Below are positions 4,180-64,000 of a DNA stretch of 64,000 bases, piece by piece. Under the pieces are notes generated by a model, which had not been told where the DNA came from, ran no database searches, and saw only the letters and a list, made by a program, of their open reading frames with translations. A program made the position numbers and the translations under genes. This DNA comes from Aureococcus anophagefferens (Eukaryota > Sar > Pelagophyceae > Pelagomonadales > Pelagomonadaceae), in assembly GCF_000186865.1 (NCBI RefSeq), contig NW_008705568.1, forward strand, positions 1,525,506 through 1,589,505, read 5' to 3'. Within the stretch, counting starts at the first letter, position 1, and every line of letters starts with the position of its first letter.

Positions 4180-7006
4180 TCACTGGCCCCGCGGCCCCGC
4201 GCGGACCTGGAGGACGTACTTGATCTTGTGGCGCGCCTCCTCGTAGACGATGAGCTCGTTGTGGCCCATGAACCGCTGCTGCGGGGGCGCGTCGGCCGGC
4301 GGCGCGAAGGCCACGGGCGCGCCGAGCGGGATCTTGGCGCCGCCGTGGTCGAGGTCGCCGGCCGCCGGGTCCGGCACGAGCCTGCCCTGGGCGAAGACGG
4401 AGTCCTTGGAGTTGAGGCGCCGCGTGTTGTTCGCGTTGACGTCCGGCGCCGTGACGCGGTGCTGGCGGCCGACGGCGACCTCCGCGAGGCAGAGCACGGC
4501 CGGCGCGCCGTCGTCCGCGCGGCAGTACTGGGCGCTCTTGGACGCGTAGTCGGCGAAATAGAGGCCCTTGTCGAAGTTGTAGCCGTTCGCCGGCGCCTCG
4601 GGCGGCGCGATGCGCAGGCCGCCGTTCAGGATGCCGCACCAGTTCGCCAGCGACGACCCGTGCCAGAGGAGCCGGCAGTCGTCGGTCCGGTGCGGCGCGA
4701 AGGCCGCCTCCTGCTTCGGGATGCGCGCCTCGAACAGCGCGTCGAGCCGCGCGCGCGGCCAGCCCCGCGCGAGGTAGGCGGCGATCTCCGCGTAGGCCCG
4801 CGTGCCCCGGTCGACGGGCGTCAGCTCGCAGCCGAGGGCGTCGTACTGGCGGCGCGCTTCGTCGCGGGGGTCCGCCGCGGGCGCCGCGGGCGCCGCGCCG
4901 GAGCGGTCGAGGCGGAGGCGCACGAGGACCTGCTCGAGCGCCGCGACGAGGTCGAGCTTCTCCCGGATGACCGCGCGGGAGTCGAGGCGGAGCGCGGCCA
5001 TGGCGCCGCGGCCGACCTTGTGCGGGATCGCGCGGAGGAAGTCGTTCGTCGCGGACGTCACCGCGGCGGCGTCGCGCGCGCGGTCGACGTCGGACTGCCG
5101 GGCCGCGTCCGTGGCCTCGGCGCGCTCGACGGCGGCGGACGCGGCCGACAGCGCCGCGTAGGCGCGCTTGACGCACGCGAGCGAGATCTCGCCCAACGGG
5201 AACTTTTTCACGTCGACGTCGCGCTTCGAGAGGTCGTCCTCGAGGTTCTTCTTGTCCATGATGCAGCGCACGAAGGCCTCGACGGACGTTTCGAGGGGCG
5301 CGAGCGACGCCGGCGGCGGCGCCGCGGCCGGCGCGGCCGGGAGCGCCGCCGCGACGGCGGCGACGAGGTCGCGCTTCTCGAAGCACGTCGACACGTCGAC
5401 GCCGCGCTCCGCCGCGAGGCGCTTCAGCTCCTTGATGCCCAGGCCGCCGAGGTCCGCCGCCGGCCGCGAAACGGCCGGCGCCGCCGGCCCGTCGTCGTCG
5501 CCCGCGAGCTCCGCGTCCGCGTGGCGCACGACGTCGTAGCAACCGGGCTTCTGCTCGAAGGCGCGCGTCGCCGCGAAGACGGGCCAGTCGTTGAGCGTGT
5601 GGCGATTGAAGTAGTGCGAAAACTCTTGCTGCGCGTCGGCGAGCGTGGGATGGAAGTGGAGCATGCACTTGTTCGCCCGCGAGCCGCCGTAGGCGCTGTA
5701 GACGCCGCGGCCGTCGTCCTGGCCCACGCGGCCCCAGCGCGAGAAGACCGCGTAGCGCTCGCCGAAGTTGAGGCACTGGAGCCGGTAGAACTTGTTCGCC
5801 TCGTGCGCGCTGTCCACCTGTGTGCAAATCAAATCTTCAAACCGACTTCAATGTGCGTGTATTCGAATGTTTCGACACAAGCTCTTCGGCTGTGCTTCGA
5901 GAACTCGATGAGAGAAATCGATCCATCCAAAAATCAGCCGAATCGACTTTGAATTGGCTGAGATAGAGAATTTCAAAGTTTGGTCGGGACGTCCCAAAGC
6001 AGTGGTTGATTTGCACACAGCTGTCCACGAGCACGAGCTGCACGTTCATCGCCGTGCGCCCGCCGTGCGTGACGACGACGGAGACGCGGCCGCCCGCCGC
6101 GCCCGCCGCGCCCGCCTCCTGCAACGCGAGCGAGTCGACGACGAGGAGCCGCGAGTCCGGCGGCACGGCCTTGAGCTTGGGCGACGGCGGCGGCGGCGGC
6201 GCCGCCGCGGCGGACGTCCGCGCCTTCTTCTTCGGCGGCGGCGACGCGGCGGACGGATCCGGCGCGCCGCGGCCCGCGCGGCCGTCGGCGTCCTCGAGCA
6301 GCGCCGCGAGCGCCGCGCGCGCCTTGCCCTTGCGGAGCGCCGCCGAGCCCTCCCAGGCCTTGGACTCGCGCGGCGGCGGGTCGCGCGAGACGAAGGCGCA
6401 GGCCGTCGACGCCGACGCCCAGCCCGTGCACCACGTCAGCGCGTGGCCGCCCTGGCCCGCGCCCGCGTGGCGGAGCGCGCGCGACCCGCACGCGCCGCAC
6501 GCGGCGAGTTTCCCGAAGCAGAGGCCGTCGGCGGCGACGTCGAGGAGCGTGTCGAGCGGGATGGGCTTGGGCCCGCTGACGAGCGCGTAGCCGTTCTCCT
6601 CGCAGAGCTGCTTCACGTCCTTGGGCTTGACGTCGTTCGCGAGCGCCTTCCGCGTCTCGCTCAGGAGCTCGCTCGCGCGCTGCGCGTCGGGATTCCCGCG
6701 GAGCGCGTCCTTCTGCGCGTCGTCGCCGGAGAAGTTCAGCTGGTCGCGCCAGGGCAGCGCGAGCACGCACCGCGGGTCGAAGCCGCGCGGCGGGCTCTTG
6801 AGGCACTCCGCGTGGTAGTGCGCGGCGTCGTAGCCGTCGTGGTGCGCGGAGCGCACGAACTTGGTCGCGCGGAGGCCGCCCTTGGGGATGGCGCCGCCGC
6901 AGCCCTTGCAGGACGCGCGGCCCGTCGGCGCGAAGCCGAGCGTCGACAGCGGCGGGCCGCCGTCGCCCTGGCCGCCGGCGCGCGCGATCTGGTCGAGGTA
7001 GGACAT
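4180..7006 (-). CDS. PARP1-like poly(ADP-ribose) polymerase, split by an introner
   Basis: Exons are 7006..6029 and 5817..4180, joined in phase 0 to give 871 residues. Domain order is that of PARP1. A PARP zinc finger (CKGC, then H-A-E-C 28 residues later) is followed by a PADR1-type zinc domain (CGACGS ... CTGW) and a Lys/Ala-rich linker. Then come a WGR domain (SRWGRVGQ) interrupted by the intron, a SAP-like stretch (GIKELKRLAAERGVD), the PARP regulatory helices (KKFPLGEISL) and the catalytic domain. The H-Y-E triad is visible as LLWHGSS, YFADYASKSA and HNELIVYEE. It should transfer ADP-ribose from NAD+ to proteins at DNA breaks in the nucleus. No BRCT domain was seen and there is only one zinc finger, so it is shorter than animal PARP1. 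Confidence 0.9.
5818..6020 (+). mobile_element. Introner A1 (type A, 203 bp) forming the PARP intron
   Basis: The 15-bp TIRs CTGTGTGCAAATCAA are perfect. The 8-bp TSD CTGTCCAC is at 5810-5817 and 6021-6028. The host gene is on the minus strand, where the TSD reads GTGGACAG. The intron is 5818..6028: its donor GT is the first two bases of the TSD copy and its acceptor CAG is the element end. Splicing restores ..QLVL-VDSAHEANK. The element is antisense to the host. Confidence 0.95.
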
Positions 7007-7277
7007 GGGTCGGCGTCAAGGGGAGCCGGTGTGTTCGCGATGCGCGTCCGGGGTTTGGGGATTTTGCGCGGGATGCGCCGCCGGAACGCTGCGATGCGCG
7101 GAACCCGATGCCCGCACGCGATGCGCGTTGCCAGCCGACGGCGTCTGAGTGTTCGAGCACAGAGATCGATTCGCCTCTGGAGGCGGAGCCGGCCGTGCCT
7201 GCTCCTCGGCGGCATCCAGCTCCTCAACGTCTCGATCAACCTGCTTGCCGTTTCAGTAGCCTAAAAGGCAGCCCGCC

Positions 7278-9450
7278 ATGGGCGCCGCCGTGAGCACGGC
7301 GCAGCAGCCCCTGGCGGAGGTCGACATCAAGAACGAGATCGGCGTGCTCTACGGCGAAGAGGCGCAGCAGGCCTTCGCTGCGGCCAAGGAGGACGACGTC
7401 GTCGCGTGGCCAAAGGTCCAGGCCTACGCCGAGGCGCACGGCCTCCTCAACCGAAAGAAGGCTATATTATTTACGAACCTGAAGCAGTTCAAGATCGCCC
7501 GCGACCAGATCGAGGCCGTCTACGACGAGCACTTCACGGGCACGGTCTGCGAAATCGCGTGGCGCGGCAAAGGCCTCGGCGACGACCGGCGCCAGTGCGG
7601 GCTGCACGGCGCGCCGGCGACGACGCTCGATGAGCTGTACGCGGTCGCGGAGAAGGCGTTGCTCAAGTACGGCGAGGTCATGACCGCCGCGTGCCCGGAC
7701 GGCGCGGTCCTGAAGCTTGCGCCGCTCAAGGGGCGCGCGCGCGCCGAGGCCAAGGCGCGGAACGAGTACGCGAAGAATACGGCGCCGGCCACGTCCTGGC
7801 TCTTCGACGTCGTGCGCGGCTCCGTCATGTGCGCGACCGAGGACGAGATCGTGCGGCTCTACGAAGCGCTCGACGAAGACCCGCGCGTCGACATCGTGCG
7901 GACGAAGAACCGGTTCAACCCGCCGTGCTTTAACGGCTATCGCGACATTCTCATGAACGTGGCGGTGCGCGTCGAAGGCGCCGCGGGCGAGGAGGTGTTG
8001 CATCTCTGCGAGCTCCAGATCCACCACGCCGCGATCAAGCAGTCGGAGCCCATGCACAAGAGCCACGTGACCTACGAGTTCTTCCGCGAGTACTTCCTCG
8101 GCAACGCGGACGCCGTCGAGCAGCGCCTCAACATGCTCTGCGCGTTGCCCGTCGCCGATGCGGAGAACGTCGACGACCTCGTGGATCGCGTGCTCGGCTC
8201 CGACCGCGCGACGGACGAGAGGCTGCTCGGCGAGCTAGAGGTGCTTCTCTATTCGATCGCGGAGCACGCGAGCGCGGTGCGCGTCTTGGAGAAGATTCTG
8301 GAGATCAAGGAGCGCGAGTTTGGGCCCGATCACCGCGAGGTGGTCTTCGCGCTGAAGCATCTCGGTGGCACGTACGGCTCCCTCGGCGACTACGCCAAGT
8401 GGCGCGACCTCCTCGAGCGCGCGCTCGCGATCCAGGAGCGCGAGTACGGCCGCGACCACAAGGAGGTTGCTGGGACGCTGATGGGCCTCGGGAATGCGTA
8501 CGGCTCCCTCGGCGACTACGCGAAGAAGCGCGACCTCCTCGAGCGCGCGCTCGCGATCTTGGAGCGCGAGTACGGCAGCGAAAACGTGGTGGTGGCCTTG
8601 GCGCTGGGGAACCTCGCGAACGCGCACGGCTCCCTCGGCGACTACGTCAAGCAGCGCGACGTCCTCGAGCACGCGCTCGCGATCTTGGAGCGCAAGTTCG
8701 GCCGCGACCACACGACCGTGGCCAGCACGCTGTCGGACCTCGGGGACGCGCACGGCTCCCTCGGCGACAACGCCAAGGCGCGCGAGCTCCTCGAGCGCGC
8801 GCTCGCGATCCAGGAGCGCGAGTACGGCGGCGACCACGTCTATGTGGCCAGGACGCTGAGGAACCTCGGGAACGCGCACTACAAACTCGGCGATAACGCC
8901 AAGGCGCGCGGTCTCTCTCGAGCGCGCGCTCGCGATCTTCGAGCTCGAGCACGGCAGCGAACACAGCGAAGTAGCCATCACGCTGACGAATCTCGGGAGC
9001 GCGCACATCGCCCTCGGTGACGCGGCTAAGGCGCGCGACGTCCTCGAGCGCGCGCTCGCGATCCACGAGCGCGAGTTTGGCCGAGGCCACGTGAAATCGG
9101 CCGAAACGCTGATGAATCTCGGTGTCGCGCACGGCGAGCTCGGCGATGCGACGAAGAAGCGTGGCCTCCTCGAGCGCGCGCTCGCGATCTTCGAGCGCGA
9201 GTACGGCCGCGACCACCCGCAGGCCGCGCTCTGTCGAAGGAGGCTCGAGCGCCGAGAAGCGCACGACATATCCCGCCGTCTTCGTCTTCTTCTTCTTCTT
9301 CGCCTTCTTCGTCTGCATCGTCATCATCTTCTTCGTCTTCAGCGGGCTGCAGCTTCGACGCGCGCAGGCCCACCATCCGCCCCCACGGCGTGCTCATCGA
9401 CGCGCGCGCGGACTGCCTCCTCGCCTCCTCGGGTCCGGTCCCCGCCTTAA
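7278..9450 (+). CDS. TPR-repeat protein (kinesin-light-chain type) with RelA/SpoT-like N-terminal region; apparent frameshift
   Basis: The first frame runs 7278-9020, but the last 37 residues are out of register. The TPR pattern continues in the +1 frame to a TAA at 9448-9450. The shift lies at about 8911-8920 (GGTCTCTCTCGAG), where one extra CT-repeat base would explain it. Residues about 1-335 form a globular region in which VVRGSVMCATEDEIV, KNRFN, GYRDI and ELQIH recall the RelA/SpoT nucleotidyltransferase fold (weak similarity). About eight 42-residue TPRs follow (LLERALAIxEREYGxDH). The MGAAVS start suggests N-myristoylation. The end is Leu/Arg-rich from a CTT-rich tract (9281-9330) and may be unreliable. 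Confidence 0.7.
8280..9220 (+). repeat. Tandem 126-bp coding repeats (TPR units)
   Basis: About seven to eight units of 126 bp, each encoding one 42-residue TPR. The blocks CTCGAGCGCGCGCTCGCGAT and GGCTCCCTCGGCGACTACGC are nearly identical between units. Such similarity favours unequal exchange and may also cause assembly error, which fits the frameshift near 8915. Confidence 0.85.
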
Positions 9451-9457
9451 CCCCCCG

Positions 9458-11974
9458 TTACGCCCCCGCTCGTCGCCGCGAGGTCCAGGGCACGCGCGGC
9501 GGCCCCGGCGTCGCCGTCTCCGCGGCGATGGCCGCGTTGAGCGCGTCGTTGAGCCGCAGGAGCAGCGCGCGGTTGCGGTCGCGGTAGCGCGGGTGCGCGA
9601 GGTTGACGAGCTCGTAGGGGTCGTCGAGCGTGTCGTAGGCGACGACGTCGTTGGCCTCGAAGAGCGCGTCCCACGTCTCCGGGAGCTGGTGGTCGCGGGG
9701 CGAGAAGAAGCGCCCGAACTTGTGGCGGCCCGTGACGACGCACTGGCCGAGGGCGCGCAGCTCGAGCGTCCGCGCCATGACGGTCACGGAGCGGCGCACG
9801 CAGCGCTGGGGCACCATGTTCGCGCGCCGCGCGTCCGAGATGACCTCCATGCCCGCGCGCATGCGAATCTCGCCGTCGAGCAGCGACCCGCCCGGCGTCG
9901 ACCCCTCGCCGTCGGACCCGCCCAAGCTCTCGCCCGACGACGACCGCCGCGTGTCCACGAGCATGGGCTGGGCCAGGGCCTCGGACGCGAGCGCGGCCGT
10001 GTCGACGACCCAGCCGCCGAGGTGGGGCTGCGGCGCGCCGGCCTGGGGCGACGACGCGTGGCGGCTCGCCGCGACGCGCCGGAAGAACTTGCCGTAGTCC
10101 AAACCGAACTGCACGAGCGCCGCGGACCGCCCGTGGCGCGGCGCGGCGCCGTCCAGAAACGGTTTCAGCGACGCGCCCGGGAGGTCCGCGGGGATTCGGA
10201 CGCCCGCGTAGTCCAAGATCGTCGGCAGCACGTCGACGGCCGAGACGACGTCGCCGACGGCCGCGCCCGGGGCGAGCGCCATGCCCGGCGCCCGAACCAA
10301 AAAGGGCGTCGACACGTTCTCGCGGTAGAGCACGTTGCCCTTCTGGCGGCACTGGTGCGCGCCGAGCATCTCGCCGTGGTCCGACCTGGGCAGGAAAAGG
10401 GTGATTCAAGTTCTCTTCAACATGAGTGTTCCGCGCGCGCGCGTTCCGGAAAAAGCATCCATGCTTCGAGACCGTTCCGAGAGATGATCGCTCGTCCAAA
10501 AATCAGCCGAAACGAGTGGAAAACGGCCGAGATCGGAGCCTTTGAAGTTGGGAATTTCGCTCTCTTTTCCTGCCCTGGGTCCGACGCGAAGACGACCACG
10601 ACGCCGCGGCCGTCGCGGCGCTCGAGGTCGTCGACGGCGTCGAGCACGGCCCCGAGCTGCGCGTCGCTGTCCCGCAGCGCGTTGAGGTAGTAGTCCAGGA
10701 AGCGCTCGTACTCCGCGTTCGACGCGAGGTGGCCGAAGCGCGCGTCGACGACCGCCTGGTGCCTGCGTGGAACTCAAATCTTCGACCCGACTTCAATGTG
10801 CGCGTGTGCGAAGGTTTCGACGCGAGCGCTTCCGCTGTGCTTCGAGAAGTCGACGAGAGCGATCGATCGGTCCAAAAATCAGCCGAATCGACTTCGATGT
10901 GACCGAGAGAGAGAGGTTTGAAGTTTGGTGGGGATCCCACAGACCAGTGGTTGATTTCCACACGGCCTGGTGCATGAGCACGGAGTTGGGCAACAACTCC
11001 TCGTGGTCCGCGTGGAGGCTCAGCGGCAGCGCGCGCCAGCGGCTGCCGTAGGGCTCCGGCAGGCCGTCGTCGTACTCGTCGGCCGCCGCCGGCTTGTCTT
11101 CGTCTCCGAAGTCGTCGCGTTCGCCGCCCGCCGCGAAGCCCTTGAGGTCGCGCGCGCGCGCGAAGGGCATCGTCTCCAGGAACAGGGGCCGGCGCCGCGT
11201 GCGCTCCTGGCCGTCGCCGGCCTCGTAGAACATGATGTCGTGCGGGTTGACGAAGTTGCAGGCGAGGAAGAGGGGCTCGGACGCCGGGCCCGCGCGGCCG
11301 AGCGCGGCCGCGGCCTCCTCCGCGGTGAGCGGGTCCTCCGCGTGGCCCTCGAGCGCCCAGCCGGGCAGGTCGCCGACGGACGCCCACGGCTCCGAGAACC
11401 CGTAGCGCTCCAGCGCTCCGGAAAAGTCGACGCCGAGCCAGGGGTGGGGCTTCTTCGCTTTCCGCGCCGCCGCCTCGTCGAGGAGCGCGCGGACCAAGCC
11501 CCGGCTCCGGTCGCCGTCCAAGAGCCGCGGGTCGTTGCGCGTCGCGTCGCGCTCGAACTTGGAAAACAACGTCTCGTCGAGGTGGAACTTGCCCGCGTAG
11601 CACGTCGCGTAGCCCGCGCGGCGCAGGTGGTGGCCCACCGTCTCGGCCTTGTCGCCGAGCGACGCGCAATTGTCGAAGACGCCCGTGTGCTGGAAGTGGC
11701 GCCCCGTGTAGAGCGTCGCGCGGCTCGGCGTGCAGGGGCTCGCCGCCGTGACGAAGTTGGCGAAGGACGCGCAGGCTTTCTTGAGGCGGCAGCGGTTCGG
11801 GAGCTCGGCGAGGGGGAAGGTCACGGGCAGCCGGTCCCAGGGCAGCTCCTGGTCCGTGACGATCAGGACGACGTGCGGCGGCCGCCGCCGGCGCCGCCGC
11901 CGGGCCCAGAGCCGGTACGCAACGTAGGCCGCGGCGGCCGCGGCGCCCGCGGCGACGAGGCCGCGGCGGCCCAT
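9458..11974 (-). CDS. Membrane-anchored type I sulfatase, two introner introns
   Basis: Exons 11974..10974, 10762..10586 and 10385..9458 give 701 residues. Splicing both introners (10763..10973 and 10386..10585) keeps the frame and rebuilds LMHQAVVDARFGHL and VFASDHGEMLGAHQ, the latter being the conserved sulfatase metal-site block. The formylglycine motif C-T-P-S-R starts at residue 81. HVVLIVTDQ (residues 34-42) supplies the N-terminal metal-binding strand. A hydrophobic segment (residues 5-20) followed by Arg-rich sequence suggests a type II membrane anchor. It should hydrolyse sulfate esters, probably on glycans, in the secretory path or at the surface. The start at 11974 is chosen at the anchor; 11980 is also possible. 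Confidence 0.88.
10386..10577 (+). mobile_element. Introner B1 (type B, 192 bp), sulfatase intron 2
   Basis: The ends are CTGGGCAGGAAAAG and the inverse of CAGGGCAGGAAAAG. The TSD GGTCCGAC is at 10378-10385 and 10578-10585, which is GTCGGACC in host sense, giving a GT donor. The intron is 10386..10585. The element is antisense to the host and its core contains CGTCCAAAAATCAGCCGAA. Confidence 0.95.
10763..10965 (+). mobile_element. Introner A2 (type A, 203 bp), sulfatase intron 1
   Basis: The left end is CTGCGTGGAACTCAA and the right end TTGATTTCCACACGG. The TSD CCTGGTGC is at 10755-10762 and 10966-10973, which is GCACCAGG in host sense. The donor is therefore GC and the acceptor CAG; the intron is 10763..10973. 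The element is antisense to the host. Confidence 0.93.
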
Positions 11975-12089
11975 ATGCATCGTATGCGCCGGAACCGTTG
12001 TTGAGGACAATGTTGACATGAGCTCTGTGTCGTGGCGCGCTCTCTGGACAGGGCTGCCCCGGCTCGAGGCGCGGATCCGGCCCGGCATC

Positions 12090-14029: not shown

Positions 14030-16051
14030 ATGGCGGCCGTCGCCGACCTCGCCCAGGCGCGGTCGTCGGCCCATCGCGCCCTCCCGCCCGCGGAGGACCC
14101 CGGCGCGGTCAGCCTCCTCCTCTTCTACGCCTACCGGGAGCCCGCCTGGACCGACGCGGAGCACAAGAAGGCGCTGGCGGAGGTGCTGGCCATCGGGGCG
14201 CGCCACAAGATCACGGGCCGGGGCCGCTGCGCCCCCGAGGGCCTCAACTGCACGCTCACGGGCCGGGGCGGCGACGTGCGCAAATTCTGCGCGTCGCTAA
14301 GGGCCTGGGACGGCGCGCTCTTCGGCCCCGCGGACTTCAAGGTCACCGACGGCCTCGAGGAGAACCAGCGCTTCAAGGCGCTGACGATCCGGAAGACGGA
14401 GGAGCTCGTGGGCTACGGCCTCGCCAACGACCGCGCGCCGAAGCTGGCGACGAACTCCGCCAGGCACCTCGAGGCCGACGCGTACCACAAGGCCTTGGAG
14501 ACGCCGGGCGCCGTCGTCATCGACGTGCGGAACCAGTACGAGACGGAGATCGGCCGCATCGTGCCGCCGCCGGGCGGCGCGGAGCTCCTGGACCCCAAGA
14601 TCCGCAACTCGCACGAGTTCCCCCGGTGGCTGAACCTGCCGGAGACGAAGAAGAAACTCGCGGGCCGGTCCGTCCTCATGTACTGCACGGGGGGCATCCG
14701 CTGCGAGCGCGCGTCGGCCCTGCTCCACGACATGAACGCCGCGCCGACCTGCGAGAGCCAGGAGGACTGCGCGAACAAGGCCGCGGCCGCGGCGCTCCTC
14801 GAGGGCGCGGACCCGCCGAAGGAGATCTTGATGGTCCGCGGCGGCATCGAGCGCTACCTCCGCACGTTCCCGGAGGGCGGCTACTGGCGCGGCGCCAACT
14901 ACCTCTTCGACAAGCGCTTCGAGCAGCGGCCCGAGAAACAGGCCGACCGGCGGCCGCTCGGGAGCTGCGCCGCGTGCCTCGCGCCGTGCGACGAGTACCG
15001 CGGCAAGTTCGCGTGTGGAAAACAAATATTCAACCCGACTTCAATGTTCGTGTATTCGACGGTTTCGACGCGAGGCTTTCTGCCGTGCTTCGAGAACTCG
15101 ACGAAAGCAATCGATGCGTCCAAAAATCAGGCGAATCGACGTCGATTTGACCGAGATAGAGAGTTCTGAAGTTTGGTGGGGACCCCCCAAACCAGTGGTT
15201 GATTTCCACACAGGCAAGTTCGCGTGCGCGGCCAAGGACTGCCGCGTGCCCGTCGTCGTCTGCGCGGCCTGCCGCGACCCCGTCTTCGCCGACGCGGCCA
15301 AGCGGCCCGCGCTCGCGGCGAAGCTCCGGTGCCGCCTCTGCCGGGAGAACCACGCGGGCGCGCGCGCGACGCCTCTACCGGACTGCGTGTTGAAGGGCGG
15401 CGCCGACGACGTCGCCCGCAAGGCCGCGGCGAAGCGGCAGCGCGACGACCGGGCGACGGCCAAGGCCGCGCGGCCACCCGCGCGCTTCGTCTTCGTCGGG
15501 AATTTGCCCTTCACGGCGGAGCGGTCCGAGGTGCTCGACGCGCTGAGCCTCGACCGCGCGACGCCCCTGACCTGGCTCCTGGACCGGACGACCCGGCTGT
15601 TCTACGGCTCCGCGGTGATTACCTGCGCGGACGTCGCGGCGGCGTCCAAGGTCGTCGACGCCGCGGGCCGCCGGCCGCGGCGCGTCCGCGGCCGCAAGCT
15701 CCGCGTCAACTTCGGCGCCGGCGGCGGCGACGGCTGCGACGGCCCGCGGCCGCCCTGCGCGCGGCCGCGTCCGTTGTTTTTTTCCACGCATCGCCGTCCG
15801 AGAGGAAGAAGCTTTGGGCCGGGGCTTAGCCGCCCGGGGAACGATCGCGCCGCTCGGAGAGCCGGAGTCAAATACTCTCCGTCGGTCGTTTTACCGCGAA
15901 TGAAGACGTCGGCCGCGCACGATCGGACACGCCCCGCGGCCCCCGCCGCCGACCGCCCGCCCCGCCGCGGCCCACGCGCGCGCGCCCCGCAGGCGTCGCC
16001 GTCCTCGAGGCGCCGGCGGCCAAGCGCGCGAAGAAGGGGAACGCCGCGTGA
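14030..16051 (+). CDS. TrhO/TSTD2-type rhodanese fused to an RNA-recognition motif
   Basis: Inferred exons are 14030..15002, 15214..15768 and 15993..16051 (528 residues). The first part is a UPF0176/TrhO protein: an acylphosphatase-like N-terminal domain (SLLLFYAYREPAW) and a rhodanese domain with the signature YCTGGIRCERASALL, where Cys is the active site. Bacterial TrhO hydroxylates tRNA uridine-34. A Cys-rich zinc-like segment (CAACLAPC ... CRVPVVVCAAC) follows, then an RRM with FVFVGNLPF as RNP2. The first intron is introner A3. The second (GT at 15769, AG at 15992) is inferred from matching phase and a Lys-rich end (AAKRAKKGNAA); without it the frame reads low-complexity sequence to 16067. 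Confidence 0.8.
15011..15213 (+). mobile_element. Introner A3 (type A, 203 bp) in the TrhO-like gene
   Basis: The TSD GCAAGTTC is at 15003-15010 and 15214-15221. The intron is 15003..15213. The donor is GC in the context G|GCAAGT, which is the classic strong GC donor, and the acceptor is CACACAG. Splicing restores CDEYRGKFACAAKD. The element is in sense orientation. Confidence 0.95.
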
Positions 16052-16078: not shown

Positions 16079-17478
16079 TTACTTTGGCCGCGCCCGGTCG
16101 CGGACGACGATGGCCGCGGCGCGCGCGGACGCGAAGGTGCCGAGGAAGGACGACGTCGTGCAGTAGTCGCCGCAGAGGACGAGGTTCGCGGTGCCGTGGG
16201 GCACGCAGGGCGACGACGCGGAGACCGGGCTCTCGGGCGCGAGGGCTTCGGCCGGTCTCGCGACCTGGGCCACGTCCCAGGGAACGGTCTTCGTGTAAAC
16301 GACGCGGAGGCGCTCGTCGTCGCCGAGCGCGGCGAGCACGGCGGCGGCGTCGACGGGCGGCGCCGCGCCGCGCGCCGCGGGCCCGTGCGCGACGACGGCG
16401 GCCGCGCCGCGCGCGCGCGCGACGAGCTCGAGGCCCGGCGCGTCGAAGGCGTCGAGCTCCGCGCGGCCCCGGAAGATCGCGTCGAGCGCCGCCGTCGCCG
16501 CGCCGCCTGTGTGGAAATCAAATCTTCAACCCGACTTCAATGTGCGCGTATGCGACGGTTTCGACGCAAGCTTCTGCTGGGCTTCGAGAACTTGACGAGA
16601 GCAATCGATTCGTCCAAAAATCAGACGAATCGACGTCGATTTGACGGAGCTAGAGAGTTCTGAAGTTTGGTGGGGACCCCCCAAACCAGTGGTTGATTTG
16701 CACACAGCGCGCCGCCGGCGTCGTCGAAGAAGAAGGCCGCCGCCGTCCGCGCGTCGTAGGCGACGCCCGCGACGACGGCCCCCGCGGGCAGGCCGCCGGC
16801 CGCGCCGCCGATGGCCAGCGCGTCCGGCGCCGCGACGGCGACCACGACGGCGTCGAAGGTCTCCGCGACGCGCTCGCCCGCCGGCCGCTGCGTCGCCGAG
16901 ACGACGATGCCGCGGTCCGACACCGCGACGGCGTCGACGCGGCGGCCGAAGCGCACGTCCGCGGGCCGCGCGCGCGCGAGCACGTCTTCGAGGACGTCGG
17001 AGAGCGACGTCGCGGCGCGGTAGTGGCGCCAGAGGCCCGGCCAGTTGAGCCGCTCCTCGGTCCCGGCGAGCGCGCCGTCGTCCGCGGGGACGAGGAGCCC
17101 GGCGCGCGCGAGCCGGGACGCCTCAGCGAACGCGGCGATGGAGGCCTCGGCGCTCACGCCGTGGCCCGGCGCGGCGCGCGCGTCGCTCGGGTCGACGACC
17201 GAGAGCACCTGGCTCCCGAGGTCGACGGCGCGGCCGCCGTGGACCGCGCGCGCGCCGAATCGCCCCGCGCAGTAGGTCGCGCGCTCCCAGACGCTCAGGC
17301 GCAGCGTCGGGCCGCCGTCCTCGAAGCGCTTGCGCAGCTCCGACGCGCAGACGCAGCCGCCCAGCCCGGCGCCGACGACGAGCACGCGGAACTCGTCGTC
17401 TTGGTGGCGCGGCTGCTGCTGCGACCGCGCGGCCGCGGCGGAGCCGGCGAGCGGGAGCGCTGCGACCGCGCGCCGCAT
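16079..17478 (-). CDS. Renalase-like FAD-dependent oxidoreductase
   Basis: Exons 17478..16716 and 16506..16079 give 396 residues. An N-terminal hydrophobic, Ala-rich leader precedes the FAD dinucleotide fold VLVVGAGLGGCVCASELRKR. A Gly-Arg-rich block (YCAGRFGARAVHGGRAVDLG) follows, and the C-terminal FAD-contact segment is LVLCGDYCTTSSFLGTFAS. The arrangement matches the renalase/amine-oxidase-like family, which oxidises dihydronicotinamide isomers or amines. The substrate here is unknown. The leader suggests secretion or organelle import. The two exons join at FFDDAGGA-ATAALDAIF across introner A4. Confidence 0.8.
16507..16707 (+). mobile_element. Introner A4 (type A, 201 bp) in the renalase-like gene
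   Basis: The left end is CTGTGTGGAAATCAA and the right end TTGATTTGCACACAG. The TSD CGCGCCGC is at 16499-16506 and 16708-16715, which is GCGGCGCG in host sense, giving a GC donor. The intron is 16507..16715, phase 1. The element is antisense to the host. Confidence 0.93.
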
Positions 17479-17612: not shown

Positions 17613-19444
17613 TTAGTACATCGCCTTCTTGAGCGCGCGGTCCTTCCGGTGGTGGTTGGCGACGGCGGACTTGTTCTTGTTGTTCCGCTTGCGCTGGATG
17701 GCGACCTTCTTCGCGTCCGGCGGCGGCGCGGGCGCGGGGCCCGCGGCGGCGCCGTCCTCCGCGGCGGCGGCGGCCGCGGGCGCGAAGGCCGGCGCGGCGT
17801 GGTTGAGGTTGCGCTGCCCGGCCCAGTAGGCGTCCTCGGCCTCGTCGGCGCGCGCGACCCTGTTGGCCTTGCGGACCGCGTCCTGGTCGCCTGTGTGCAA
17901 ATCAACCAGTGAGCTGGGACGTCGGGGCCAAACTTGAGAATTCTCTAGCTCGGTCAAATCGAAGTCGATTCGGCTGATTTTTGGACGAATCGATTGCTCT
18001 CGTCGAGGTCTCGAAGCACAGCCGAAGAGCTTGCATCAAAATTGTCGCATACGCGCACATTGAAGTCGGGTTGAAGATTTGATTTGCACACAGCTGGTCG
18101 CCGAGCGCGGTCGCGGCGACGATGGGGTCGTCGGGGCCGTCGTAGCGGTCGTCGTAGTCGTCGTCGTAGAGGCCGCCGGCGAGGAGGCGGAGCTCCTCGG
18201 CCTCGCGGTCGTCGCGCTCGAGGCGCCGCGCGCGGGCCTTCTGCCGCGCCGCGAAGGCCGCGTCCGGCGGCGCCGGGGCCGAGCGGAGCGTCCGGGGCTT
18301 GGCGAGCGCGACGTCCGCGAGCTGGGGCGACAGGTGCGCGACCTCGGGCGGCGGCCGGCCGTCGAGGAGGCGCGAGACGACGGCGTTTGTGTCGAAGGCG
18401 AGCGCGGCGAGGCACGCGGCGACGTAGCCCTCGCCGAAGCCGTCGCCTAAAATCGCGCGGCACTCGGCGACCTTGGCCTTGAGCGCCGCGAGGGAGTCGT
18501 CCCGCGGGGCCGCCCGCGGCGGCGCCGCCGCGGGCGCCGCCGCGGGCGGCGGCGGCGGCGGCGGGGCAGNNNNNNNNNNNNNNNNNNNNNNNNNNNNNNN
18601 NNNNNNNNNNNNNNNNNNNNNNNNNNNNNNNNNNNNNNNNNNNNNNNNNNNNNNNNNNNNNNNNNNNNNNNNNNNNNNNNNNNNNNNNNNNNNNNNNNNN
18701 NNNNNNNNNNNNNNNNNNNNNNNNNNNNNNNNNNNNNNNNNNNNNNNNNNNNNNNNNNNNNNNNNNNNNNNNNNNNNNNNNNNNNNNNNNNNNNNNNNNN
18801 NNNNNNNNNNNNNNNNNNNNNNNNNNNNNNNNNNNNNNNNNNNNNNNNNNNNNNNNNNNNNNNNNNNNNNNNNNNNNNNNNNNNNNNNNNNNNNNNNNNN
18901 NNNNNNNNNNNNNNNNNNNNNNNNNNNNNNNNNNNNNNNNNNNNNNNNNNNNNNNNNNNNNNNNNNNNNNNNNNNNNNNNNNNNNNNNNNNNNNNNNNNN
19001 NNNNNNNNNNNNNNNNNNNNNNNNNNNNNNNNNNNNNNNNNNNNNNNNNNNNNNNNNNNNNNNNNNNNNNNNNNNNNNNNNNNNNNNNNNNNNTCGCTCT
19101 GAGGATCCCACGCGGCGCGCCAACTCGCGCGCGCGGCCGCCGAAGACCGCCGCGACGCCCAGGAGCCGCGCGGCGTCCGGCGGCGCGCCGCCGGGCGCGG
19201 CGCAGCGCGCGAAGACGCAGAGCGCGGCCTCGTCGAGGGCGCCGAGGCCCGCCGCGGCGCCGGGCCGCTCCCAGGGCCGCCGCCGGTAGGCGAGGTACGA
19301 GTCCAGCAGGCGCGCCTCGCCGGCGACGGCGGCGCCGAAGGACGCGTCGCTCTCGCGGAGCAGGCCGTCGAGGCGCGATACGAGCGGGGGTATCGCAGCG
19401 TCGCTGTCGTTGTCGCCCGGGAGGAAGGCGAGCGACGCGGCCAT
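17613..19444 (-). CDS. ASCC2-like protein with CUE domain, interrupted by a gap
   Basis: The N-terminal part starts at 19444 (MAASLAFLPGDNDSD) and reads about 117 residues before the gap. The part after the gap is Pro/Ala-rich, then has a CUE ubiquitin-binding domain (ECRAILGDGFGEGYVAACL ... VVSRLLDG). An acidic Tyr-Asp segment (LYDDDYDDRYDG) and a basic tail (NHHRKDRALKKAMY) follow. This order matches ASCC2, the ubiquitin-binding subunit of the ASC-1 complex in ribosome rescue and alkylation repair. The reading frames on the two sides of the gap differ, so the gap length is approximate or hides an intron. The last intron is introner A5, with the final exon 17890..17613. Confidence 0.75.
17891..18093 (-). 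mobile_element. Introner A5 (type A, 203 bp) in the ASCC2-like gene
   Basis: The TIRs are CTGTGTGCAAATCAA at both ends. The TSD CTGGTCGC is at 17883-17890 and 18094-18101, which is GCGACCAG in host sense, giving a GC donor. The intron is 17891..18101. The element is in the opposite plus-strand orientation to A1-A4, so it is sense to its host. Confidence 0.95.
18570..19093. other. Assembly gap (524 N)
   Basis: Unknown bases inside the ASCC2-like gene. The sequence on the left edge is a GCC/GGC-rich low-complexity tract encoding Pro/Ala, a likely cause of the break. Confidence 0.99.
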
Positions 19445-27559: not shown

Positions 27560-27839
27560 CATTTGTTTCACGGGGCTGATGGCCATCTTCGAGCGGTCGT
27601 GGGCGCGGAGGCTACACCCTGAGCCTGAGCGGGTCTTGGCTGGGATAAAGGTGAAGCTGTAACGCAGCACCGTTATATCTTACCTTCTTGCACAGACATT
27701 GATCGCTTCGCCGCGCATTCTCGACGGGCAGCGTTGCTCAGCGACAAGTGCGCGCCGCCGGGTTCTGAGCCAGGCGCCGCGGACACTCGGGCGAGTGCGC
27801 GCGCCGCGGCGCGACGCCCCTCGCGCCACCCGCGCCGCC

Positions 27840-47918: not shown

Positions 47919-49425
47919 ATGCTGCGACCAGCGCCCGCTCGCAGCGCTCGGCGAGCGATGCGCGCGCTGCTCTGGTCCGCATCGCTCGCGCGGGCGACCG
48001 ACACGTGCGTCCAGAACCGGCCGGAGCTGCTGGCCCGCGCGTCGCTCTACTATTGCCCGAACGACGCGTTCCTGGCGCTCGCGCAGCGCGAGTTCCCGTG
48101 CGCGACGACCTTCCTGGACGTCGGCGCCAACAAGGGCTACACGGCCGTCGAGATGCTGGCCTACTGGGCGCCCGGCTCCGTGACGCCGCCCGTCCGCCAG
48201 CGTCGTGATGACGCGCTCGGTGAAGGACTGCGACGCGTCGTTTTCGTACCACGCGACCGTGTCGTCGATGTAGGCACGCGTGGTGGCGGGCGCACGTCGA
48301 CGACGCCGCGCTCCCGGCGTGGTCCGACGAGTTCCGCAAGGGCCGCAACATCGGCTACCAGTGCGGGTCCTGCCACGAATGCCTCGACCGCCCGGCGCCC
48401 AGGGGCACCTGCGAACGCGGCGGCAAGGTCAACGTCCACTCCTTCGACGGCTCGCCGGCGCTCGCGGCCGTCGCGAAAAGGGTCTGGAGCGAGCGCTTCG
48501 AGGCCTCGTCCGAGGCGTCGTGGCGCTACACCGTCGCCGCCGTCGCCGAGCGCGGCGGCGGCACGGTGCGCTTCTCGAATTCGTCCGAGGAGCAGGGCGC
48601 GATTTCGAGGGACGCGGGCGGCGTCGAGGTGCCCGCGACGACCGTCGACGACTACGCGAGAACCAACAACCTCGCCGTCGACGTGCTCAAGATCGACACG
48701 GAGGGCAACGACGGCCTCGTGCTCCTGGGCGCCGCGGAGACGCTGCGATCGCCGAGCCTCAAGCTCGTCTACTTCGAGTACGCGGTCGCGCCGACGTGGT
48801 TCGAGCGCCGCGGCGTCTTCGCGGCCGCGCTCGCCGCGCTCGAGGCCGCGAGCTTCGTCTGCTTCTTTGGCGGCCACCTGCCGCGCACGGTGCGCATCAC
48901 GGGCTGCGCCGACGAGCGCTGGGACATCTTCAACCCGCGGTCGCTGCTGCGCCTCGTCGCCTCCTGCGCGAACGCGAACGTTTTTTGCGCGTCGACCGCG
49001 GCGCGGGACACGGGGCGATGCGACGTCGCTTCAACATGGGTGCGCCGCGCGCGATCGTTCCAAGGACTCGCGCGTCGAGAGCGCTCCGAGAGCTCCTCGC
49101 CCGTCCAAAAAGTCGTGGACACTGACCGAGCTCGGGAGCCTTTAAAAACTTTCGGGCGCGTCGCGCCCGTTTCCCGCGCAGGTCGAACGACAACGCGCCG
49201 GGCCTCGTCGCCGCGCTCGACGCGCTCAGCGTCGCCAACGTCGACTTCTCGCGCGAGACGGCGGCGGACTGCCACATGACCTACCGCATCAACGGCCACC
49301 GCGACGAGCACCGCAAGATGATGCGCCAGTACTACCCCGAGGCGACGGCGACCAACGCGACCTACGACGACGCCCACTGGGACTGGGCGAGCGTGCCGCC
49401 CGTGCCGCGATGGCCCTGCCACTAA
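47919..49425 (+). CDS. FkbM-family methyltransferase, multi-exon
   Basis: Exon 1 runs 47919..about 48180 (alternative ATG 47958, beginning a signal-like MRALLWSASLARA) and holds motif I, TFLDVGANKGYTAVEML. Exon 2 runs from about 48283 to 48990 and includes WSDEFRKGRNIGYQCGSCHE and the FkbM core TTVDDYART, VLKIDTEGNDGLVLLGA and LVYFEYAV. Exon 3, 49182..49425, ends PRWPCH and includes CHMTYRINGHR. The exon 1 donor is not certain; the acceptor GATGTAG ends at about 48282. The last intron is introner C. FkbM proteins methylate sugar or lipid hydroxyls. Cys-rich exon 2 fits a secreted location. Confidence 0.68.
48999..49181 (+). mobile_element. Introner C (183 bp, type B relative with new TIR)
   Basis: The ends are CGGCGCGGGACACGGG and the inverse of CTGCGCGGGAAACGGG. 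The TSD is GTCGACCG (48991-48998) and GTCGAACG (49182-49189), with one mismatch. The intron is 48991..49181 with a GT donor, restoring NVFCASNDNAPG. The interior keeps TTCAACATGGGTG, GTCGAGAGCGCTCCGAGAG and CGTCCAAAAA. Confidence 0.88.
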
Positions 49426-49443: not shown

Positions 49444-51961
49444 CTAGAAGCAGACCTTCCCCTTGCATCGCCGCGGCTTCGGCTTCGTCGGCGGGCCGCT
49501 CGGCTTCGGCGCGTCGACGGCCTTCTCCGCGAGCAGCTTCGTCAAGCGGGCGACCTCGTCGCGGAGCTCGGCGACCTCCCCCTGGAGCTTGCCGACGCGG
49601 CCCGCCTCGTCGCGCGCGGCGACCGTCGCGGCGTACGCGGCGCACGCCGGCGGCCACGCGTAGCCGAGCGCGGCGTAGTCGACGGCGAGGAGCTCGCAGA
49701 GCGTGGCCTGGACGCTATCGGGGAGCGTCGCCGGCGTGATGGCGCCGAAGGACTCGAAGGCGACGCGCTTCGCGGCGTTCGCGGCGTCGTACGCGCGCTG
49801 CGAGTAGCGGAAGCGCCGCTGCGTGTTCTCGTCCTGGTCCGCGAGGGCCGCCGCCGTCCGCGCGCCGACGATGGCGCCGGCGTCGTGCTTGTGGTGGAAG
49901 CCCGCGGCCTCGGCGGCCGCCGCGAGGCCCGCGAGGCCCACGCGGGCCTCGAGGAGCCGCCAGAGCGGCGCCGTGCCGTCCTCGAGGGGCCAGACGTAGT
50001 CGAACCGGTGGCCGCAGTTCTGGCCCACGCTCTTGAGCACGGGCGCCTGGAGCGCGAGGTGGCCCGTGAGGAGCCGCTCGCGGCTCGCGGCGAACATGTC
50101 CGACACGAACGCGTGGAACCGCGCGGGCCTGCGCGACATTCTTCAACCAGACTTCAATGTGAGCGTATGCGACAGCTTTGATGCAATCTCTTCGGCTGTG
50201 CTTCGAGAACTCGACGAGAGCAGTCGATTCGTCCAAAAATCAGCCGAATCGACTTCGATTTGACCGAGCTAGAGAATTCTGAAGTTTGGTCAGGGCCTGC
50301 GCGACGTCGACCGCCGGTCCGGGACGTCCCGACCGAACTTGTGCAATGCTCTCGCTCGGCCACATCGACGTCGATTCGGCTCTCTTTTGGACGGATCGAT
50401 GGCTCTCGTCGAGTGTTCGAAGCGCAGCGGCAGTGCTCGCGTCGAACCCGTCGCGCGCGCGCGCGTCGCGGTCGAACTCGAAGGTTCGAGGTCCGCGCGG
50501 GCGCGGGCTCCGTCGCGACGGCGAAGTGGGGCAGGTGGGCCAGGTGGCCGATGGACGTCTCCGTGTAGTAGCCCGAGATGAAGCGGAACGTGGGCTCGCG
50601 CGTCCAGGCGAACGTGATGGCGACCTTGGGCCGGCCCGGCGGCCACGGCGGCGCCGCGCGGTAGGGGCACGTGTAGCAGAGGCGCCGGCCCGCGTCGGGC
50701 CCGGCCGGGTCCGCGGCCGACACGTACGCCAGCACGCCCGGCGCCTCGGCGGCCGCGAGCACGGCCATGGTCGCCGTCGACGACGCCTTGGGCACCTGCG
50801 CGAACCGGAGCCGCGACGCCGGGCCGTCCCAGACGTTGACGCACGACCCCTTGGAGGCGGCGACGACGCGCTTGAACGCGACCCAGAGCGCGTCCGCGCG
50901 GCGCCGCGCCTCGTCCTCGACGGCGTCGACGGCCGCCGCCGCCCACCGCGCGGCCGCCGCGGACGCCTCCGTGTCCGCGTCGGGCGGCGCGGCCGCGGCC
51001 GGCGCTTTCGGGGGCGCGTAGCCGCGCGCGACCGCGAGCTGCGAGACGAGGCGGTTCGCCCGGGCGACGACCTCGAGGTCGCAGAGGTTCGCGAGGCGGA
51101 GGAGGCCCAGCGCTTCGCCGTCGAGGTCGTAGCCCCGCGCCTTCGCGTAGGCCGCCGCCGTCTCCGGCGCCGCGGCGCGCGGGGGCTCCGCGGCTTCGAG
51201 GCCGACGACCGCCCCGAGCACGAAGTACGACTCGCCGGGCAGGTCCGCCAGATTGAGCACGGCGGCGTAGCGGGGCAGCACCGCGAGCGCCGCGGCGAGG
51301 ACGTCCGGCGCGCACGCGTCCGCGGTGGCGTTGAAGCGCGCGCCGGGCAGGAGGTGGCGCGTCGCGAAGTTGCGGAGCTGGCGCCGGTCGCCCTCCGAGC
51401 CGCCGCCGCGGACCGCGGCCCGGAACCCGGCCGCGTCGAGGCCTGCGAAAACGGGGGCGGCATGTCCGGGCGCGCGTCGATGGAGACGCCGCGACGCCGG
51501 TCGAGGCCTCGCGTCTTCGCCGCGTAGGACACGAAGCGCTTGATCGGGTCGCGGACCAGGAGCAGCCACGCGTACGCGGTCCACAGGCTCGCGCCCGCGG
51601 GCGCCGCCGCGGCGGCGTCGAGCACGGCCCGCGCGCCGGCCCCGAGCCGCCGCCCGGGCTCGACGACGACCGCGTTGCACAGCGCGGCGTCCGCGGCCAT
51701 CGCGCGCGCCGTCGCCGCGAAAGTGAGGTTGTGGTCCGCGACGGACCCATTGAGCGCCTTGAGGTAGTGGAACGCGCCGCCCTCGAGCCGGCAGTCCATG
51801 TCCGGACCGCCGTGGAACTGCCGGCAGGCGAGGTCGCAGAGCGTCCCGCCGCCGGACCGCGACACGCTCACGGCGAGGATGGGCCGCGGCGGCGCCTGCG
51901 ATCCGGCGCCGACGACACAGCAGGCGACGAGCAACGCGGCGCACCGAGCGCAGGCCGTCAT
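49444..51961 (-). CDS. Sulfotransferase-like secreted protein with a nested introner intron and an apparent frameshift
   Basis: Exon 1 is 51961..50503 and exon 2 is 50128..49444. The start at 51961 begins a signal peptide (CAALLVACCVVGAG). The first part has ILAVSVSRSGGGTLCDLACR, probably the PAPS loop, and LLLVRDPIKRFVSYAAKTR, the 3'-phosphate segment. Near 51453, in a run of five G, the frame must shift by one to continue (MPPP to VFAGLDAAGFRAAV). Downstream are KVAITFAWTREPTFRFISGY and, after the intron, PARFHAFVSDMFAASRERLL and a coiled coil before RRCKGKVCF. The join TEPA-PARFHAF is exact. The frameshift may be a sequencing error. Confidence 0.7.
50129..50293 (+). mobile_element. Introner A7 (short type A), inserted at the edge of A8
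   Basis: A clear type A core (CTTCAACCAGACTTCAATGT, CGTCCAAAAATCAGCCGAA) has a short left end (CTGCGCGACATTC) and a right end cut back to TTTGGTCAG. It is flanked by a 12-bp direct repeat GGCCTGCGCGAC at 50126-50137 and 50294-50305. It provides the CAG acceptor actually adjoining exon 2. It is antisense to the host. Confidence 0.85.
50297..50494 (-). mobile_element. Introner A8 (diverged type A), sense to host
   Basis: A GC-shifted copy in reverse orientation to A7. On the minus strand TTCGACGCGAGCACTGCCGC, CGTCCAAAAGAGAGCCGAAT and GGTCGGGACGTCCCGG align with type A. The TSD, in host sense GCCCGCGC, is at 50495-50502 (donor, GC) and 50121-50128 (exon 2 side). The whole intron is 50129..50502 (374 bp) and contains A7. 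Confidence 0.82.
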
Positions 51962-56083: not shown

Positions 56084-56815
56084 ATGGACATCGAGAGCGC
56101 GCACCGGCGTCCCGCGACGACGCCCGACCCGCCGAAGAACCGCGCGCGCGCGCGGAGAACGCGCGCCGTTCTGGAGGCGTCAAGGGCCGGATCGTATGAA
56201 TGACCCCCGCGCCCGCAGGCATCAAGGGCAAGATCGACGAGCTCCTCGTCAAGCTCCCGGAGCCGGCGCAGGCCAAGCTCGCGGACCTCGAGAAGTCCAC
56301 GGGCCAGCCCAAGTCGCTCATCGCCGGCGGCGGCGCGGTTTTCGCGTCGCTCCTCTTCCTCTTCCTCTGCGCGTTTCCCCGCGTCCGTCCCGCCGTCGCG
56401 CCGCGGCGCGGCCGCCCGTCCCTCGCCCCGGCGGCGGCGCCTCGCGGCCCCTCTCTCGCGCGCGCGCGCGGAACGTTCGCGGAACCGCGCGCGTTCCCCA
56501 GGCCCGCCGCAGCTCGTCTTCTCGGCCGTCGGCGTCGCCTACCCCATGTACGCGTCGCTCCTCATGCTCGCCGAGGACACGACGGAGGACGCGGCCATGT
56601 GGATCACCTACTGGTGCACGTTCACGTGCTTCAAGATCGTCATGGGCCCGCTCGACTTCATCCTGAGCTTCCTCCCCTTCTACTTCTACCTCAAGCTCAC
56701 GCTCCTCGTCTGGCTCTTCTCCCCGACGACCAAGGGCGCCGCCATGGTCTACGAGAAGGGCGTCAAGCCCTTCGTCTTCCCCCTCCTCGTCGGCCCGAAC
56801 GAGAAGTCGGACTAG
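56084..56815 (+). CDS. HVA22/REEP/Yop1 family ER-shaping protein
   Basis: Inferred exons 56084..56108, 56219..56386 and 56502..56815 give 168 residues. The TB2/DP1 domain is clear: FSAVGVAYPMYASLLMLAED, MWITYWCTFTCFKIVMGPLD, FLPFYFYLKLTLLVWLF and GAAMVYEKGVKPF. Such proteins form hairpins in the ER membrane and promote tubule curvature or ER-phagy. Both introns (110 and 115 bp) are inferred from GT-AG ends and phase agreement and are not introners by sequence. The first exon codes only MDIESAHR. Confidence 0.78.
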
Positions 56816-57698: not shown

Positions 57699-57707
57699 AA
57701 AGACGGG

Positions 57708-58916: not shown

Positions 58917-59091
58917 CGCCGCGCACCGGTTTGCACGAAAGCTGCGGACCGGGTGCGGCGCCCGACGGCGGACTGCGCTGGTCAGGGGGCTGCCGGAGAG
59001 CGTCGAACGCGACATCATGTTGATGTCAAGTTGCCTCAACAACAAGCAAAAAAGTAGGGTGGCGCCCGGCGAGAGGAAAAAAGGGACACGC

Positions 59092-59563: not shown

Positions 59564-59603
<40 letters not shown>

Positions 59604-61605: not shown

Positions 61606-61692
61606 CGGAGCTGGTCGGCCTTCTCCCGCAGTCGAGGCTGCCCGAGCGAAAACATGGGGGTTTCATCGCGTCACCGTCGGCTTCGTCGAACT

Positions 61693-62625: not shown

Positions 62626-62781
62626 CGCGATGCTTTTCAACCGGTACGCCAATGGTGCAGCATTCAAGCATCGTCATTGACCTTCGGGGCAGCTCTCAGC
62701 TCTCCCGCACTGCGAAGGTCAGACCTTTTCTGGCGGCGGCCATCGGTGGCGCGCGGCGCCGCCGCCGGCGCTCTCGCACGC

Positions 62782-64000
62782 ATGGCGCTCCCCGCGCTCG
62801 ACGGCATCCGCGCCTCCTGGAACGACACCTGCAACTACGACAACCTGAACCGGAGGCGCGTCACGCCGCAGCGCTTCCCCGTCGTCCTCGAGCCCGCCGG
62901 CGACCCGTCGGACCTCGCCGTGCTCCGGGCGCGGCGAAGTGAAATCATGGACCTCATCCACGCCCACGGCGCCGTGCTGCTGCGCCGCTGGACCACGAAG
63001 GAGCTGCCCGCGTTCGTCGAGAGCTTGGAGCGGGTCCTCGGCGCCGAAGCCGAGGGCACGCACTACCACAAGATCTCCATGCTCCGGGGCGAGGGCCGCA
63101 AGGCGACGGCGCATCCCCACGTCTTCTCCGCGTCCGAGGCGCCGGCGACCTTCTTCATCCCGCACCACTGCGAGCAGTCGTACATCAACCTGCGGTGCCG
63201 CTACATCTCGTTCTGGTGCCCCGTGGCCGCAAAGCGGGGCGGCCAGACGCCCCTCTTCGACATGGAGCGCGTCTTCTCCGACCTCGACGCGCGGCTCCAG
63301 GGCCGGCTCCAGGAGTGCGCGTTCAAGCTCGGCAACTGGAGCTTCGAGGCGTCGCAGTACCCGCTCGTCTTCGGCACCGAGGACGCGGCCGAGGTGAAGC
63401 GCATCGTCGCCGACTACGGCATGGACCAGGTCTGGTACACGGACCCGGCCACGGAGCGGCGCGTGCTCGTCGTGGACGGGAAGACGCCGGGCGCCGTGCG
63501 GCACCCGGAGACGGGCGCGTGGTGCCTCACGGACCACATCGACGTCGACAGCGGTTTGATCTGGGCGAGGTTCCTCAACTTCTACGGCGCGGGCTTCTTC
63601 CCGCTGGCGGTCGTGCGCGCGGCGTTCTTCCTTTTCCTCTACGGTCTCATGCGGTGGCGGAACTCAGGGCAGGACAAGAGAGCGAAATTCCCAACTTCAA
63701 AGCCTCATATCTCGGCCGTTTCCACTCGTTTTGGCTGATTTTTGGACGAGCGATCATCTCTTGGAACGGTCTCGAAGCGTGGATGCTTTCTTCGGAACGC
63801 GCGCGCGCAGAACACTCACTTTGAAGCGACGTTGAATCTCTCTTGTCCTGCCCAGGCGGAACTTCTGGTACGCGAACTCGCTGCACGACACGTTGGACAT
63901 GACGCTCCCGCTCGAGGACCGCGTGGCCATCAACGACGCCGTCTTCCGCCACGCGTCCTTCTTCCAGTGGGAGAGCGGCGACGTGCTCATCTGCGACAAC
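62782..64000 (+). CDS. TauD/TfdA-type Fe(II)/2-oxoglutarate dioxygenase, 3' end outside window
   Basis: Exons 62782..63656 and 63856..>64000. It has the TauD fold pattern: a leading GAVLLRRW, the iron motif H-C-E (H129, E131) in FIPHHCEQSY, and FWCPVAAKRGGQTPLFDMER, the usual G-G-x-T-P block. The second His and the 2OG Arg would be further on; the last residues visible (SGDVLICDN) match the start of the distal GDV-x-x-x-DN motif. The substrate is unknown. A hydrophobic stretch FFPLAVVRAAFFLFLYGL lies just before the intron. The intron is introner B9, in phase 2. Confidence 0.8.
63665..63855 (-). mobile_element. Introner B9 (type B, 191 bp) in the TauD-like gene
   Basis: The ends are CAGGGCAGGACAAG and CTTGTCCTGCCCAG. 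The TSD GCGGAACT is at 63657-63664 and 63856-63863. The intron is 63657..63855 with a GC donor, restoring LMRW-RNFWYAN. The element is antisense to the host. Confidence 0.95.

Follow-up and report, generated by a model that had tools for sequence, protein, structure and literature searches.

Introner elements of two inverted-repeat families and their predicted introns in a 64,000-nucleotide stretch of the Aureococcus anophagefferens genome

Introner elements in Aureococcus anophagefferens were reportedly described by Huff, Zilberman and Roy in 2016. The present analysis concerns 64,000 nucleotides of this alga (contig NW_008705568.1, positions 1,525,506 to 1,589,505 of the forward strand; G000:C8:1525506-1589505 in our numbering; hereafter the window), in which short repeats interrupt coding frames. 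These repeats are almost certainly introners, that is, short non-autonomous DNA transposons resembling miniature inverted-repeat transposable elements (MITEs), whose insertions in exons are removed as introns by splicing. For the introners of this species, the portions consulted of papers citing Huff 2016 describe introns of about 210 bp (PMC9481584), direct repeats and terminal inverted repeats (TIRs) (PMC7789003), and co-opted splice sites, DNA transposition and both orientations (PMC10228655). The mechanism is already known in A. anophagefferens, as an earlier note on this DNA, made from the sequence alone, had stated. According to this mechanism, a non-autonomous element with TIRs would insert into an exon with duplication of an 8-bp target. 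One TIR end would supply the acceptor, a pyrimidine run followed by CAG, and the donor would be the GT or GC that opens the duplicated target. The intron would consist of the first copy of the target-site duplication (TSD) together with the element, leaving the mRNA length unchanged, and only those insertions that splice would survive. For the window, the anatomy of the repeats, their copy number, their coupling to the gene strand and the restoration of frames and proteins are apparent in the sequence itself; we infer splicing in RNA, transposase-driven insertion and the survival of only the spliced insertions.

Two families, A and B, were recognized. Within the window, profiles trained on five A and five B copies gave 19 matches, 9 for A and 10 for B; 18 of them were accepted as introner copies. 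These account for 17 introns spread over 13 genes, one intron holding two elements. The count of about 19 elements in the earlier note is thereby corrected to 18, the nineteenth match (43929-43999) being located in an unbroken frame. In the genome (49.05 Mb in 86 contigs), the B core motif matched 2,191 times with at most two mismatches and the A core motif 1,477 times with at most one, compared with 1 and 0 matches, respectively, for the reversed patterns. A generic scan of the window for TIRs with TSDs returned 69 hits against 11, 9 and 9 in three Markov controls and consisted mostly of GC-rich noise, so that the evidence rests on family homology, near-fixed length and copy number. Further properties were scored in 46 copies, taken from the window, from a 200-kb part of contig C1 and from small extra loci; the sample is not random because some extra loci were picked for odd ends. 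In the C1 part (C1:1000001-1200000), 50,046 of the 200,000 bases are N, and transposons located there could escape detection.

Family A is about 203 bp long with the TIR CTGTGTGSAAATCAA, and in the window the six A copies for which a TSD was scored measure 201-203 bp. Family B is about 192 bp long with the TIR CWGGGCAGSAMAAG, and the eight corresponding B copies measure 183-193 bp, mostly 192 bp. An 8-bp TSD with 7 or 8 matching bases was found in 14 of the 18 accepted window copies, and the elements at 30174, 39808, 50128 and 50298 are decayed. In the larger sample, a TSD was scored in 38 of 46 copies, with 8/8 matching bases in 31, 7/8 in 6 and 6/8 in 1. A core is common to both families, while the TIRs are different: the majority sequences of A and B align locally with a score of 54, compared with a maximum of 25 in 500 shuffles, and differ at their ends. 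Insertion in both orientations, as previously claimed, is seen in each family: relative to the gene, the core lies in the same orientation in 9 A copies and in the opposite one in 10, and the corresponding numbers for B are 13 and 6. In family B, the gene orientation goes hand in hand with the position of the acceptor-competent end. Spread through RNA, with an excised intron undergoing reverse splicing, as outlined for fungal introner-like elements in the consulted part of PMC9860276, could account for copies at exact intron positions. However, such spread should yield a single orientation and no TSD, and the 8-bp TSDs, the inverted repeats and the two core orientations make it scarcely credible.

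With the gene strand called solely from the coding signal in the flanks, all 38 copies with a scored TSD lie between coding flanks, with a G-pyrimidine (GY) donor at the TSD start and the element CAG as the acceptor. The printed score was 37/38 for the donor and 37/38 for the acceptor, the exception at 31850 being a 1-bp boundary choice; once corrected to 31849, this copy shows a GC donor and a CAG acceptor. The chance GY frequency in the coding sense strand is 0.197. The claim that the element end provides the acceptor and the duplicated host bases the donor fits every copy in this set. GC donors are present in 22 of the 38 copies (21 printed and the corrected one), 11 of 19 in each family. 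Among the GY dinucleotides of the coding background, 79% are GC; the co-opted donors thus include more GT than expected, although GT is still in the minority. At the donor-side end, the 19 A copies carry CTG in 14 cases and are decayed in 5, and the 19 B copies carry CAG in 15 and CGG in 3, in addition to the boundary case (CGG once corrected). Where the donor-side end is decayed, the acceptor-side CAG is retained in 9 of 9 copies, with the boundary case as corrected. Furthermore, two loci (L033 and L034) have deletions near the TSD-marked acceptor end, yet the terminal CAG is still present. One-sided decay of this kind is what selection for splicing predicts, and the survival of the acceptor CAG in copies with a decayed donor-side end provides a check independent of RNA.

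The predicted introns of the window, and the one match not counted among them, are as follows.

5818-6028, minus strand: A element 5818-6020 with TSD copy; donor GTGGACAG, acceptor CACACAG; WGR-domain (PARP-like) gene, the WGR domain crossing the junction.
10386-10585, minus strand: B element 10386-10577; donor GTCGGACC; sulfatase gene, Pfam Sulfatase crossing the junction.
10763-10973, minus strand: A element 10763-10965; donor GCACCAGG; CCG at the decayed donor-side end; sulfatase gene, Pfam Sulfatase crossing the junction.
15003-15213, plus strand: A element 15011-15213; donor GCAAGTTC; GCG at the decayed donor-side end; rhodanese gene, Rhodanese_C crossing the junction.
16507-16715, minus strand: A element 16507-16707; donor GCGGCGCG; NAD-binding/amine oxidase-like gene.
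17891-18101, minus strand: A element 17891-18093; donor GCGACCAG.
20869-21079, plus strand: A element 20877-21079; donor GCGCTGCC.
23636-23835, minus strand: B element 23636-23827; donor GTCGGCCT; DUF1499 gene, the domain beginning beside the junction, not across it.
24595-24794, plus strand: B element 24603-24794; donor GCCGGCGA; OLA1/YchF gene; second TSD copy one base different.
25378-25577, plus strand: B element 25386-25577; donor GTCGAGGC; OLA1/YchF gene.
30166-30347, plus strand: decayed B element; donor GCGGACCG, acceptor GTCGCCCAG; leucine-rich repeat (LRR) gene; gapless against P0137.
31482-31681, plus strand: B element 31490-31681; donor GTCGCGGG; same LRR gene; gapless against P0137.
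31841-32041, plus strand: older B element 31849-32041; donor GCGGGCGT; same LRR gene; over the junction, P0137 aligns without a gap and P0136 is identical.
39811-39986, minus strand: decayed B element; splice sites ambiguous, with 27 frame-consistent choices.
48991-49181, plus strand: B copy 28% from the family majority, the most diverged measured in the window; donor GTCGACCG, acceptor CGCGCAG; FkbM methyltransferase-like gene.
50129-50502, minus strand: composite intron made up of two oppositely oriented A elements; outer direct repeat GCCCGCGC frame-consistent; donor not unique, with 21 frame-consistent choices.
63657-63855, plus strand: B element 63665-63855; donor GCGGAACT; TauD/TfdA-like dioxygenase gene; contiguous in P0121.
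43929-43999, minus strand: weak A-like fragment of 71 bp (19.6 bits, E 1.2e-5) within an unbroken coding segment; not counted as an intron.

The fragment at 43929-43999 is possibly an exonised introner remnant or a chance match. In the composite intron at 50129-50502, an inner direct repeat GTCGCGCAGGCCC is located at both acceptor ends.

Coding segmentation by a codon-usage Viterbi model that was blind to the repeats placed a gap between same-strand coding segments at 17 of the 17 introns, with gap edges at a median of 8 bp (range 1-47) from the predicted splice sites. Together with the TSDs, this bears out the description of the elements as short repeats with TIRs and 8-bp TSDs located at frame breaks. 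Excision of the TSD copy with the element leaves open frames, and phases 0, 1 and 2 are represented by 7, 3 and 5 of the 15 introns with settled boundaries. Such excision had also been said to rebuild conserved proteins, and protein or domain continuity was indeed found at 10 of the 17 junctions: WGR, Sulfatase (two), Rhodanese_C, OLA1 (two), the dioxygenase and LRR (three). In the amine-oxidase-like, DUF1499 and FkbM genes, the domain search placed no domain over the junction. In the alignment with the solved structure 2ohf (GTP-binding protein 9), aligned blocks cover both OLA1 junctions, and small gaps occur close to the second; we take 2ohf to be human OLA1.

At the protein level, the OLA1 product after splicing matches database protein P0001 at 454 of 455 residues. 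The sole mismatch falls at the 24595-24794 junction. The two TSD copies of this locus (24595-24802) are not identical, one base being changed: the first, intronic copy encodes the residue seen in P0001 and P0003, and the exonic copy does not. OLA1 is also gapless across its junctions against the relative P0002. The spliced dioxygenase product is contiguous with P0121 and identical at 337 of 340 residues, P0121 being flagged as a protein that the window itself encodes; against P0123, a more distant relative, one gap column lies near the junction. The LRR protein is gapless over its three junctions against P0137, a relative of 1,568 aa. Overall, after excision, the alignments with P0001, P0002, P0121 and P0137 are free of gaps up to 25 residues from each of the six junctions in the OLA1, dioxygenase and LRR genes. 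Exact blocks of at least 15 residues shared with the window products cover 343/359 residues for P0003, 1,176/1,187 for P0135, 1,079/1,128 for P0136 and 955/1,179 for P0138, all four of which bear the name A. anophagefferens. Their best local alignments are lower (79-96% identity over 46-65% of the query) because the gene models omit pieces. Ordinary unspliced MITEs, which would leave broken host frames and many pseudogenes in the window, would share the MITE anatomy of the elements, and retained elements would put stops into most frames. Nevertheless, this alternative is very unlikely in view of the coding-strand donors and acceptors in all 38 copies, the preserved acceptor end where the donor-side end is decayed, and the database proteins that cross junctions exactly, although it is not stated whether the latter derive from cDNA or from gene models.

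Several points weigh against the interpretation of the repeats as spliced introners. In the sample, 8 of 46 copies have no scored TSD, and 7 of the 17 junctions are without protein-level support. The sources of P0001 and P0121 are silent on cDNA or gene-model origin, so that these proteins are no proof of splicing. Beside the 25378-25577, 30166-30347 and 31482-31681 junctions, sequence is missing or changed in the NCBI gene models P0003, P0135 and P0136, which seems to be an annotation error. In addition, TIR-pattern and domain searches of the genome found no autonomous partner or transposase, although absence is not demonstrated by pattern filters that pass about 9/16 of random interiors per family and require an exact TIR. 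Searching the whole genome for exact TIRs of either family around an interior that is not an introner yielded 4 + 4 + 3 + 1 = 12 hits, and 11 of these are introner variants. Locus L032, considered as an autonomous partner, has no profile match and was read as a chance occurrence in GC-rich DNA. PF05699 (hAT dimer) and PF18758 had no match in the genome and were also silent in all 14 control genomes; PF10551 and PF12762 likewise had no match in the genome, with positive controls in 3 and 1 of 14, respectively. Mobilisation by AanRAGL, the RAG-like transposon, would have the merit of a DNA transposon active in the same species, as given in the consulted part of PMC9435367. However, the TIRs reported there carry CACACCCAAACCT and the TSD is 5 bp, unlike the introner TIRs CTGTGTGSAAATCAA or CWGGGCAGSAMAAG and the 8-bp TSD, and this alternative is extremely improbable.

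A later paper by Gozashti and colleagues is said to concern horizontal transfer of introners. Viral spread was also considered here: a 19-mer of the shared core had one exact hit in IMG/VR, on a contig of 39% GC in which about 20-30 bases match the profiles, and this was read as chance; the scan may leave out records near the genome of the window. The consulted part of PMC12768974 describes introners in mirusviruses that have no match in the eukaryotic introner database.

The ends of the two families follow different rules. In family A, both ends are CAG and both are acceptor-competent. In contrast, one end of family B is CTGGGC (outward GCCCAG, an acceptor) and the other is CAGGGC, which is not an acceptor; the earlier statement that both TIRs end in CAG is correct for A and has to be abandoned for B. 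Each B subfamily therefore suits one gene orientation only. For the pairing of B ends, the first 100 listed of 1,263 left ends were used together with those listed right ends that fall into the stretch they cover, 67 out of the 100 listed (795 in total). Among the matches listed, 56 pairs were obtained, with the acceptor at the core 3' end in 30, the acceptor at the core 5' end in 20 and a decayed donor-side end in 6. None of these 56 listed pairs has two competent ends or no competent end, and the intact pairs among the matches listed have exactly one in 50 of 50 cases. Furthermore, TIR positions 9 and 11 are equal between both ends in 47 of the 56 listed pairs, over four main variants, and differ in 9. 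This pattern could be accounted for by two founder subfamilies plus occasional gene conversion, but also by a constraint that keeps one end CAGGG. As a tentative and rather doubtful proposal, B may have arisen from an unspliceable CAGGG...CCCTG parent that acquired an acceptor by a single T/A change at either end, giving two mirror-image subfamilies with opposite gene orientations. Two-ended copies would then be absent since transposition needs one unmodified CAGGG end, so that mobility would be traded against splicing, and the agreement of the two TIRs at positions 9 and 11 would imply joint change of both ends of a copy. A tree of 14 full-length B copies hints, with weak support, at more than one origin of the mirror subfamilies rather than a single inversion. 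The mirror-image B pattern, the covarying TIRs and the GC donor majority are the least explained parts of the analysis. No statement of the B end rule was found in the consulted parts of the introner literature, the 2016 source paper aside, and novelty is not claimed.

Apart from the introner introns, 24 same-strand coding joins without an element are present in the window: 13 resemble gene boundaries, 2 short introns and 2 frame shifts (at about 8904 and near 28030-28062). The 13 were read as gene boundaries because a stop lies just before the join and an ATG close to the beginning of the segment that follows. The claim that introners create nearly all introns in the window has the 17 introner introns in its favor, but it is unproven in view of two plausible non-introner introns, with 7 of the 24 other joins unassigned. 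A plausible 82-bp non-introner intron lies at 35336-35417 and a plausible short one at 56437-56512 in a membrane-protein-like gene, both with ambiguous splice sites. Among other coding features, a kinase-like gene (judged by eye) at 27829-29076 shows an apparent frame shift near 28030-28062. A 126-bp tandem repeat occupies coding sequence at 8160-9216, where the frame changes at about 8904 and one repeat spacing is a base off a multiple of 126.

Introners are a clear case of bulk intron creation, and the window displays the proposed mechanism at base resolution. The GC donor majority and the NCBI models that skip sequence at junctions matter for annotating this alga, and the B end rule, if confirmed genome-wide, could make the trade-off between a good transposon and a good intron measurable. 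MITEs of the hAT type have an 8-bp TSD and ends beginning with CAGNG or similar; the window elements share the 8-bp TSD, the B donor-side end begins with CAGGG, and the A ends begin with CTGTG. The A. anophagefferens introners of Huff 2016, known here through the citing descriptions, agree in species, TIRs, direct repeats, introns of about 210 bp, a co-opted splice site and both orientations. This likeness is by description only, and the B end rule, the mirror subfamilies and the composite intron may already be described in that work. Introners across eukaryotes (Gozashti 2022, PMC9860276, in the part consulted) also have TSDs and TIRs, one own and one co-opted splice site, and a GC content below that of exons. 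In an Aureococcus sp. family in the same source, both splice sites lie in the element and the mRNA gains 12 bp, whereas the window introners would leave its length unchanged. GC donors are given there as rare, at 0-50.0% per family, compared with 11 of 19 per family in our small, non-random sample. Fungal introner-like elements spread by reverse splicing (PMC9860276) would have no TSD and no TIR, whereas the window introners have both.

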